This document shows, piece after piece, positions 29,443-31,587 of a DNA stretch of 32,167 nucleotides. This stretch comes from Patescibacteria group bacterium (lineage in GTDB: Bacteria > Patescibacteriota > Patescibacteriia > 2-12-FULL-60-25). The DNA lies in contig JAKLEH010000013.1 of NCBI GenBank assembly GCA_022703155.1, positions 1 through 32,167 on the forward strand, in the 5' to 3' direction. The translations under genes were made by a program, and so were the position numbers. Every line of letters starts with the position of its first letter. The stretch's first letter is position 1. The notes beneath the pieces were generated by a model that worked only from the letters and a program-made list of their open reading frames with translations, was not told the DNA's origin and searched no databases.

Positions 29443-29910
29443 ATGGGCAATCCTTTCGAAACCCGTCTGCCGGAACTGGTGGAAAAACGCGAAGAGGCGT
29501 ACGCGCCGCGTGAGATGGCGTTGTTGCGCCGCATGTTTCCTGGATTGTCGGAAAAATCCCCCGAAGCGAAGAGCGAAAACGCCCTTGAGGACGCACGCCG
29601 GTCGCTGCTTAGGCGTTTGATTGCCCGTTTTGACCAGAGGGACATGGCATCGCTGGAAGCCCAAGGTTTGAATTATTTTTCCGTCAAGAATCTGCGCGAA
29701 CAAATACGGCGGCAGGACGGCCGTCGGGTCGGCCTTATGGCGTCCACGGATTTTGGGGTTGAGGTCTTCGTGCCCATGTCCAACGTCAGGGTCGCGCCTG
29801 GGGATTTGCGCCAAATCGATAAGTTGGAGATGCGCTTGCAAGCGAGCCATTCGAGCGACCGGGTGGTGGGCATCATCGAACGGGCCAATCCGTTCAGGGC
29901 CAGGGGTTGA
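29443..29910 (+). CDS. Hypothetical basic protein, 155 residues
   Basis: I do not recognise this protein. It is rich in Arg, Glu and Leu, with helical stretches 'RLPELVEKREEAY', 'EDARRSLLRRLIARFDQRD' and 'NLREQIRRQ', and a strand-like C-terminal part 'GLMASTDFGVEVFVPMSNVRVAPGDLRQIDKLEMRLQ' (about 97-133, cited in parts). There is no signal peptide or Cys. The start ATG 29443 follows a perfect TATAAT by 9 nt; a longer in-frame reading from 29365 begins within the terminator hairpin and is unlikely. The Cys-module operon follows with its own promoter. Confidence 0.7.
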   Translation: MGNPFETRLPELVEKREEAYAPREMALLRRMFPGLSEKSPEAKSENALEDARRSLLRRLIARFDQRDMASLEAQGLNYFSVKNLREQIRRQDGRRVGLMASTDFGVEVFVPMSNVRVAPGDLRQIDKLEMRLQASHSSDRVVGIIERANPFRARG

Positions 29911-29925
29911 AATCGGCCCCACCGC

Positions 29926-29954
29926 TGGACACTTCCGCCAGGACGTGATATCTT
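29926..29954 (+). promoter_or_regulatory. Promoter of the three-gene Cys-module operon
   Basis: TGGACA (29926-29931), a 17-nt spacer ending in TGA, TATCTT (29949-29954). Transcription should start near 29961. The leader carries a strong purine-rich SD (GGGAGGAG). Confidence 0.65.
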
Positions 29955-29988
29955 TCTGCGGCTCGTTGGTCCGGGAGGGAGGAGAGCC

Positions 29989-30174
29989 ATGGCCAAAACC
30001 GATGACGTATTGTGTTCTTTCCAACTGGCGCGCTTGGTCGCCAAACCGCTCAACGTTTGTCCGAAGTGCGGACATGAAATCGTCCGCATCTGCCATCGTT
30101 GCGGAGGGTGCGTTTTCTGTTGCGCGTGCCACCGGCGTGACCGGAGGAGGTGGGAATATGCCGCAGGACATTGA
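29989..30174 (+). CDS. Cys-module protein 1 (61 residues, one module)
   Basis: A small basic protein with nine Cys. After an N-terminal stretch it holds 'CPKC' (24-27), a 7-residue gap, and 'CHRCGGCVFCCACH' (35-48). This is the pattern C-x2-C-x7-C-x2-C-x2-C-x2-C-C-x-C, which recurs three times in the next protein and twice in the third, with a 9-residue gap there. The eight or nine Cys could bind two zinc ions or an iron-sulfur cluster. It ends in an Arg-rich tail ('HRRDRRRWEY'), which might touch nucleic acid. The ATG has a GGGAGGAG SD. The gene overlaps the next one by 17 nt in another frame, so translation is probably coupled. No signal peptide. No known family recognised. Confidence 0.75.
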   Translation: MAKTDDVLCSFQLARLVAKPLNVCPKCGHEIVRICHRCGGCVFCCACHRRDRRRWEYAAGH

Positions 30175-30490
30175 CGGTTCGTGCAGATGCACCGAATGCG
30201 GAAGCCGGGTCGACGACGAGGATTACTGCTTCGAATGCGAACAGTGCCTTGCCTGCTGTTCTTGCGATCCTGAAGTTTCGCGCATCAAGTGCCGCAATTG
30301 CAAAAGCGACATTTACGCTTCGCAGAAGTGCGAAGTCGACGGGTGCGGCGGTTGCGAGCTGTGTTGCAGCCACGCCTCTGCGCGCGACGCCGAGACCTCA
30401 GTCTGCGAATATTGCGAGAACGTTGTCGATCATGCGGACGTCTGTGGCATGTGCGGTAAGTGCAGAAGTTGTTGCGGGTGCGGTCAATGA
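30158..30490 (+). CDS. Cys-module protein 2 (110 residues, three modules)
   Basis: Of 110 residues, 24 are Cys. Three consecutive modules have near-equal spacing. Module 1: Cys11, 14, 24, 27, 30, 33, 34, 36. Module 2: Cys45, 48, 58, 63, 66, 69, 70 and His72. Module 3: Cys83, 86, 96, 99, 102, 105, 106, 108. The gap between the first pair and the cluster is always nine residues. Each module is about 26-28 residues and offers eight ligands, enough for two zinc ions. Between modules the protein is acidic. The start ATG 30158 has GGAGGAGGTG just upstream, inside the end of gene 1. The stop overlaps the start of gene 3 (ATGA). No signal peptide is present, so the cysteines are probably metal-bound in the cytoplasm rather than disulfides. 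Function unknown. Confidence 0.8.
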   Translation: MPQDIDGSCRCTECGSRVDDEDYCFECEQCLACCSCDPEVSRIKCRNCKSDIYASQKCEVDGCGGCELCCSHASARDAETSVCEYCENVVDHADVCGMCGKCRSCCGCGQ

Positions 30491-30723
30491 GCATGTCCAT
30501 GCCGCCGCCGCCAAAAGCATGCGCCGCGTGCCGCGCCCCCGCGGACAGCAAGCGTTTCTGCTATTCGTGCAACCGCTGTTTCGGCTGTTGCGCATGTGAA
30601 CCTTATTACTCCTGGGTGTGGTGCCCCGCGTGTCCGCGCGGCTTGCGCCGCAGCGAACTGTGCGCGACTTGCGGCAAGTGCCCGGAGTGTTGCGAACACG
30701 CGAGTCAAACCGCCGCTCAATAG
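30487..30723 (+). CDS. Cys-module protein 3 (78 residues, two modules)
   Basis: Two modules of the same kind: Cys12, 15, 25, 28, 31, 34, 35, 37 and Cys46, 49, 59, 62, 65, 68, 69 with His71. The nine-residue gap is kept in both. A Met/Pro-rich N-terminus precedes them and a short polar tail follows. The start ATG overlaps the stop of gene 2 in the sequence ATGA, typical of coupled translation. The stop TAG lies in the stem of the terminator, so the operon ends here. Together the three genes carry 1, 3 and 2 modules. They could form one metal-rich complex, act as metal stores, or serve as small adaptors for nucleic acid; nothing in the sequence decides between these. Confidence 0.78.
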   Translation: MSMSMPPPPKACAACRAPADSKRFCYSCNRCFGCCACEPYYSWVWCPACPRGLRRSELCATCGKCPECCEHASQTAAQ

Positions 30724-30742
30724 CCATTAAGGCTATTTTTTT
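30719..30742 (+). terminator. Terminator of the Cys-module operon
   Basis: AATAGCC/GGCTATT with a 5-nt loop, followed by a T run to 30742. Confidence 0.9.
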
Positions 30743-30799: not shown

Positions 30800-31195
30800 T
30801 CAGGAGGCTTGGTTCAGGAAGGCGGCCAGGTCGTCCGCCTGCCGGGCTACGCGGTTGGCATAGGCCGTGCCGTTGCGTACGTCGATCCATTTGAGGACCT
30901 TGCGCGCCTGTTCGATGGTCATGTACAGGAATTCGCCTTCGTTGCCTTCTATTTGAAGCCCAAAGTCTTGGGCGTCGGCGAGTGCCTGCCCGAACCAGGC
31001 GAGTGCCGGGTCTTGGACTTGGCCGACCAACATGTCGTCAGTTTTGCCGGAATCTATCAGGTGCCGGATACCGGCGTGTAGACGCGAGACCGGCAGCCGG
31101 ATGACGCCATGGTTGATCCGGGTGGCGCTCATCAAGGCGGCCATCCAAAAGGCCATTTCATCGCGTTGGTTGTCGGTGATCATAGCGCTGACCAT
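30800..31195 (-). CDS. Small hypothetical protein, second gene of a paralogous pair
   Basis: A 131-residue protein with no signal peptide, probably cytoplasmic. It aligns along most of its length with the upstream protein: 'MAFWMAALM' with 'AVWLATVLG', 'WFGQALADAQDFGLQIEGNEGEFLYM' with 'FYDALLKSHTLGVDMDGESAEYVFV' (cited in parts), and 'AYANRVARQADDLAAFL' with 'GYIDVARRHAKRLCDIL'. The fold should be mixed alpha/beta. The start ATG 31195 has GAGG in the SD position and overlaps the upstream stop region (31201), so the two are co-translated. No family is recognised. Confidence 0.7.
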   Translation of the reverse strand: MVSAMITDNQRDEMAFWMAALMSATRINHGVIRLPVSRLHAGIRHLIDSGKTDDMLVGQVQDPALAWFGQALADAQDFGLQIEGNEGEFLYMTIEQARKVLKWIDVRNGTAYANRVARQADDLAAFLNQAS

Positions 31196-31200
31196 GTTCC

Positions 31201-31587
31201 TCACTCCTTTTGCAAGATGTCGCACAGGCGCTTGGCGTGGCGACGGGCGACGTCGATGTATCCCGGGCCCATGGCGGCCGTGGCGCGGCTCAGGATTTGT
31301 TCGGCCGTGCGCGAGTCCACGAATACGTACTCGGCCGATTCGCCGTCCATGTCCACGCCCAGGGTATGGGATTTGAGCAGGGCGTCGTAGAATCCGGGCA
31401 GGGACTGGGCGTTGGGCTGACCGTTGCCGTTGGCCGTGAAGGGCACGGTGTTGTCGTCCGAAATGAGTTGCGCGGCCCGGTAGAGATCCGAGTAGCGCAC
31501 TCGGAATATCCCATTTTCCAAACAGGCCGCGCCCAACACGGTCGCCAACCAAACCGCGCCATCGTCACGTCTCACGTCTTCCGTCAT
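31201..31587 (-). CDS. Small hypothetical protein, first gene of a paralogous pair
   Basis: A 128-residue protein, paralogue of the 30800-31195 product. It begins 'MTEDVRRDDGAVWLATVLGA' and ends in a helical 'YIDVARRHAKRLCDILQKE'. A Gly/Asn-rich loop ('TANGNGQPNAQ') is present only here. I use ATG 31587 with AGGAGG six nt upstream; the longer frame to 31656 runs through the promoter. Strong promoter, good SD and a shared terminator indicate efficient expression of the pair. Function unknown. A role as a toxin-antitoxin pair was considered, but the two products resemble each other, which is unusual for such pairs. Confidence 0.72.
   Translation of the reverse strand: MTEDVRRDDGAVWLATVLGAACLENGIFRVRYSDLYRAAQLISDDNTVPFTANGNGQPNAQSLPGFYDALLKSHTLGVDMDGESAEYVFVDSRTAEQILSRATAAMGPGYIDVARRHAKRLCDILQKE

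Follow-up and report, generated by a model that had tools for sequence, protein, structure and literature searches.

Among the closest described counterparts of the proteins studied here are the short zinc ribbons of Zn_Ribbon_1 (PF13240) and Zn_ribbon_3 (PF13248), in which a C-x2-C pair is followed by 9–10 residues with a hydrophobic position and then by a second C-x2-C pair, the third cysteine being preceded by a hydrophobic or aromatic residue. The haloarchaeal C(P)XCG microproteins HVO_0758 and HVO_2753 are likewise tiny and carry paired CxxC(G) motifs; HVO_2753, in which four are present, binds one zinc only (PMC11241148, PMC10716476). Cross-brace fingers (RING, B-box, ZZ, Nse1) place eight ligands in a small domain, and [4Fe-4S] ferredoxins are marked by the motif CxxCxxCxxxC.

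We analysed a stretch of 32,167 nucleotides (hereafter the window; contig 5 of a 1.23 Mb, 98% complete Patescibacteria group genome) in which three overlapping plus-strand genes encode tiny cysteine-rich proteins: A (29989–30174; 61 residues, pI 9.0), B (30158–30490; 110 residues, pI 4.4) and C (30487–30723; 78 residues, pI 8.4). The initial annotation had proposed that they repeat one cysteine module in 1, 3 and 2 copies, and gene calls together with pattern matching bear this out. The modules, all on the plus strand, are A1 (30058–30129) in gene A, B1 (30188–30265), B2 (30290–30373) and B3 (30404–30481) in gene B, and C1 (30520–30597) and C2 (30622–30699) in gene C, with the consensus C-x2-C-x9-C-x2-C-x2-C-x2-CC-x-[C/H]; we number its eight ligands L1–L8. 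As had been noted, the nine-residue gap is kept in five of the six modules and shortened to seven in A1, and B2 replaces its second pair by C-x4-C. L8 reads C, C, H, C, C, H from A1 to C2, the two histidines belonging to B2 and C2. When each protein's own residues were shuffled 100,000 times, the module count of A was reached once and those of B and C never. CPKCG and CHRCG occur in gene A; in the longer B and C, glycine follows CxxC in some places only.

The three reading frames are tightly packed. The proposed ATGA coupling holds for B and C, which share these four bases, but A and B instead share 17 nt, with the B start codon at ATG 30158. Similarly, strong Shine-Dalgarno sites precede gene A (AGGGAGGAG, 29976–29984, plus strand) and gene B, but none is obvious for gene C, whose translation probably depends on coupling.

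Comparing the module with the described systems reveals both shared and distinct features. Its first half (L1–L4) resembles a short zinc ribbon, also in the hydrophobic or aromatic residues that precede its third cysteine (positions 8 and 13). However, its scores against PF13240 and PF13248 stay under the curated cut-offs, and the module adds four further ligands, CxxCCx[C/H], directly after the ribbon. The haloarchaeal microproteins lack such a CC-x-[C/H] end, and the parts of PMC11241148 and PMC10716476 available describe no tandem multi-gene operon of them. Like the cross-brace fingers, the module offers eight ligands, yet at about 26 residues it is very short, and its L6 and L7 are adjacent. 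Matches to this group were weak (PML B-box, E = 0.04; CBP ZZ, E = 0.06; Nse1; RINGs), and no significant sequence or fold match to a RING or B-box cross-brace finger was found.

No model in Pfam, NCBIfam, PHROG or PADLOC matched the operon proteins above its cut-off; a match to a known domain had been named beforehand as the outcome that would speak against a new module. The libraries tested probably do not cover the module because its conserved information lies almost only in cysteines. The weak Pfam matches were nearly all to zinc fingers or ribbons: of the 17 modules compared, one reached E = 0.0009 for PF13240, below the curated cut-off of that family, and PF13248 reached E = 0.0011 on one relative, with a best score of 18.8 bits against a cut-off of 27. 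The earlier view that the module lies outside the named zinc-finger classes thus applies to the module as a whole, but not to its first half, which is short-zinc-ribbon-like below cut-off. A search of open-access papers turned up none that describes the motif.

Taken together, we favour the reading that the locus is a cytoplasmic zinc-finger microprotein operon whose tandem modules serve as adaptors or scaffolds with two zinc sites per module, and we give it about an even chance. Each module would consist of a short zinc ribbon (L1–L4, C-x2-C-x9-C-x2-C) running directly into C-x2-C-C-x-[C/H] (L5–L8), and its eight ligands would probably form two tetrahedral zinc sites. In tandem, the modules may build compact adaptors or scaffolds for other proteins or nucleic acid, and the three proteins (A and C basic, B acidic), co-made through overlapping translation, would probably act as one working set. 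The opposite charges of A and C versus B, the overlapping genes and the gene-specific residues all favour a set of distinct subunits. Zinc as the metal, the two sites per module, the fold, the partners, complex formation and the adaptor role are what we infer from these features; among possible roles, that of zinc-finger adaptor microproteins is the most likely. Rather unlikely is a bolder version, in which the module represents a mini-domain that has not been described before, binds two metals and has a coordination topology of its own (interleaved CxxC ... CxxCCx[C/H], possibly mixed Zn/Fe-S). It would serve phages, archaea and bacteria as an adaptor that stands alone, and in this genus of the candidate phyla radiation (CPR) it would have been built into a metal-rich assembly of several subunits under a promoter of its own.

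AlphaFold predicted most of a single-module relative with a pLDDT of about 90 and small strands, and protein C with a pLDDT of 81, so that confidence in the models is moderate; Foldseek searches with them returned no significant PDB match, which weighs against the favoured reading. AlphaFold gives tetrahedral cysteine geometry even for zinc-free fingers, as reported in PMC11241148. Because such geometry is drawn without metal, the models are no proof of a metal, and zinc is our interpretation of the ligand pattern.

The conservation of the ligands was examined across 17 modules from four species (the window genome and the congeneric genomes G004, G006 and G008). L2, L3, L4 and L5 are cysteine in all 17 modules, and L1 and L7 in 16 each, one module having a displaced L1 and one lacking L7. 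L6 is cysteine in 15 modules and histidine in two, and L8 is cysteine in 11 and histidine in four; in the two others a cysteine slightly downstream takes the place of L8. The expected conservation of ligand type is thus seen, with Cys-to-His exchanges at L6 and L8. Such exchanges are usual for zinc ligands. The module lacking L7 is 1b of G008, where the position is arginine, and this missing ligand counts against the favoured zinc-finger reading. Non-ligand positions drift, except for hydrophobic position 8, position 13, which is rich in F, Y and L, and a glycine after L4 in C-terminal modules.

The spacing of L3, L4, L5 and L7 is that of a ferredoxin motif, CxxCxxCxxxC, often with the core CxxCGxC. 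It is therefore conceivable, though improbable, that these four ligands hold a [4Fe-4S] cluster and that L1, L2, L6 and L8 hold zinc, or that the module is an iron-sulphur protein altogether. Histidine is accepted precisely at ligands that the ferredoxin motif leaves out, L6 and L8, and there is weak profile similarity to FwdF (E = 0.0007 and 0.018), with weak matches also to HmcF/DsrK/HdrC and ferredoxins. However, the proline that follows the last cysteine of ferredoxin motifs is missing, Fer4 is absent even from the weak Pfam matches of the 17 modules, and the module has an additional CxxC on the N-terminal side besides L6 and L8. Moreover, L3 is preceded by a hydrophobic or aromatic residue, as in ribbons, the arginine of G008 module 1b removes one of the four cluster ligands, and inserts shift the motif in G008 genes 2 and 3.

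With cysteine making up 15–22% of A, B and C, the tandem modules could also be a metallothionein-like store or buffer that sequesters Zn, Cd or Cu, which we consider unlikely. The accessory nature of the locus and a Magasanikbacterium (L219) in which two different tiny Cys-rich genes adjoin would fit such a store. Typical metallothioneins, however, have a higher cysteine content than the operon proteins, and the regular ribbon spacing, the conserved hydrophobic positions and the gene-specific residues are not what a store would be expected to show; no metal transporter or metal regulator was seen beside the locus. That C-terminal modules keep gene-specific residues is easier to square with subunits of distinct identity than with metal sponges that could replace one another. 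The basic character of A and C would suit small transcription or translation factors that bind nucleic acid through tandem modules, and archaea are known to have small regulatory zinc-finger proteins, such as Brz (PMC2253796). Against this quite unlikely alternative stand the strongly acidic B and the four similarly acidic single-module proteins of the Magasanikbacteria type (pI 4.1).

In addition to single ligands, the modules retain positional identities. The glycine after L4 occurs in seven of seven C-terminal modules and in none of seven N-terminal modules of two- and three-module proteins. With the ligands excluded, N-terminal modules resemble N-terminal and C-terminal modules resemble C-terminal ones (p = 0.0006). 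Individual modules also match across species, namely C2 with G006b (p = 0.0008) and G008_4b (p = 0.002), and G008_3b with G004b (p < 0.001) and A1 (p = 0.007), while B1, B2 and B3 match G008_1a, G008_1b and G008_2 in order (p = 0.02, 0.06 and 0.06); none of these values is corrected, and the pairs were selected with the scores already in view. Gene A thus corresponds to G008 gene 3, B to genes 1 and 2, and C to gene 4. These matches point to a cluster that already comprised several genes in an ancestor and later underwent loss, fusion (B) and reordering. On the simplest reading of the sequences, several ancestral genes were thinned and reordered, B was fused, and the duplications predate these species. 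The initial annotation had instead suggested a family growing by duplication; recent growth of this kind is not the simplest history, given that modules pair across species.

The initial annotation had also pointed to related genomes as the place where absence of the genes or of their cysteines would become apparent. Three of eight congeneric genomes (G004, G006, G008) carry the genes, with conserved cysteine ligands and at the same place, upstream of xseA. In these and in the window, the Cys genes occupy the interval from a membrane-protein gene, one that ends in GFTLVEWGG, to xseA. In G008 there are four of them, which overlap and have 2, 1, 2 and 2 modules (seven in total), and G004 and G006 have one two-module gene each. 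G001 and G003 have an intact locus without a Cys gene, with about 180 bp and 4 bp, respectively, from the membrane-protein gene to xseA; the presence/absence count leaves aside G002, G005 and G007, where xseA was not found or lies at a contig edge. In the other family genomes examined, a protein search found no Cys genes, and none lay within 1.5 kb of xseA. In an xseA tree, the genus forms one clade (100/100) and the non-carriers G001 and G003 group with the carrier G006 (82/74), which makes loss of the Cys genes in these two genomes likely but not certain.

No conserved neighbour of the locus explains a function, which counts against the zinc-finger adaptor reading, as does the lack of Cys genes at the intact locus of G001 and G003. 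The window alone has two minus-strand genes and one plus-strand gene in addition between the membrane-protein gene and xseA. In the window, 30803–31195 and 31204–31587 (both minus strand) are adjoining paralogs (24% identity, E = 1e-8) without a family match, found in this genome only among the nine of the genus. Directly 5' of the operon, a 155-residue gene (29443–29910, plus strand) has no family match and is single-copy in the genome.

The promoter and terminator proposed for the operon are both present. The promoter (29926–29954, plus strand) consists of TGGACA, a 17-nt spacer ending in TGn, and TATCTT, and lies 34 nt 5' of gene A; a stem-loop followed by a T run forms an intrinsic terminator at 30719–30737 (plus strand; −8 kcal/mol, z = −2.8). 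The consensus score of the promoter is only modest, but the pattern TGGACA-N17-TAnnnT with extended TG stands 5' of the Cys genes in the window genome, G004, G006 and G008. Each of these four carrier genomes has exactly one copy, always at the Cys locus, for an 11-base pattern with a chance expectation of about one match per 4.2 million positions on a strand; since the pattern was first derived from these very loci, it is a conserved feature rather than an independent prediction. The non-carriers G001 and G003 have extra matches to it, none of them 5' of Cys-rich genes. Downstream of the final Cys gene, candidate terminators judged by eye also occur in G008, G006 and G004. With locus, promoter and terminators conserved across carriers, the claim of a real transcription unit is upheld, and on sequence grounds the operon is a genuine, conserved and separately expressed unit, accessory to the cell.

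The module is no peculiarity of the CPR, as might have been supposed. A seven-Cys DNA pattern with glycine after L4 matched at least 117 stretches in GTDB genomes. Among the matches listed, and after removal of Cys-rich repeats, real-looking open reading frames occur in Magasanikbacteria, Acidobacteria, Elusimicrobia, Clostridia, Anaerolineae, Thaumarchaeota, Woesearchaeota and others, and about a dozen distinct viral proteins carry the module pattern. We adopted the glycine constraints and a frame-breaking control because the bare viral pattern scan returned mostly low-complexity repeats. Breaking the frame by one base left no viral-contig matches, compared with 37, 31 and 19 in frame; as many of the in-frame matches are low-complexity repeats, these numbers reflect coding periodicity, not a count of true members. 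A profile search across Patescibacteria yielded mostly plain four-Cys zinc ribbons, and tblastn of phage records with gene B and four relatives gave nothing useful.

A viral scan with L6 and L7 left free gave a yield mixed with repeats and tails like those of ribonucleotide reductases (RNR). In large viral proteins, the pattern of the first five cysteines stands at the C-terminus, followed by GC, and we take this to resemble the redox tail of class II ribonucleotide reductases. A thiol redox or chaperone function, with the CxxCCx[C/H] tail acting on a zinc-ribbon base, is nevertheless very unlikely for the module, as L5–L8 are nearly invariant or replaced by histidine, as expected of metal ligands, and no redox enzyme lies beside the locus.

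Its occurrence in phages, archaea and other bacteria makes the module look like a credible, unnamed and widespread mini-domain that probably binds zinc, not an oddity of one genome. With only 26 Cys-dominated residues to compare, common ancestry of all carriers would be one explanation and convergence a possible other. Its small size, its spread over phages and far-apart lineages, and its absence from the family libraries tested make the module a candidate for a new domain family; a name would offer one testable idea for many short hypothetical proteins. The CPR locus lends itself well to testing, because 0, 2, 6 or 7 modules stand at the same place within one genus and the carriers share a promoter.

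The simplest module form occurs in single-module proteins of 39–43 residues at a conserved position 3' of atpC (L153, 2917–3033; L218, 5173–5301; L309, 1501–1620), in Magasanikbacteria and in G339, a genome of the same class. In L218 (1–8000), the atpC region appears in mirror image within one contig, possibly an assembly artefact. The adjoining pair of Cys-rich genes in Magasanikbacterium L219 (4136–4444, minus strand) lies close to genes that look like a Kef antiporter and a carbonic anhydrase, both named by eye. Bryobacterales (L155, L157, L161, L168 and others) have a family with CSICxEP...CVYCTKDACxNHxCEKCGRCSDCCxC, which is an independent variant; it often adjoins a conserved gene that offers no functional clue. 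Far longer frames also carry the module: an elusimicrobial frame of 461 residues (L173, 1820–2095, minus strand) has many Cys modules in succession, and frames of 673–1430 residues in Oscillospiraceae (L156, L190, L211) have long arrays of CxxC units that include it.
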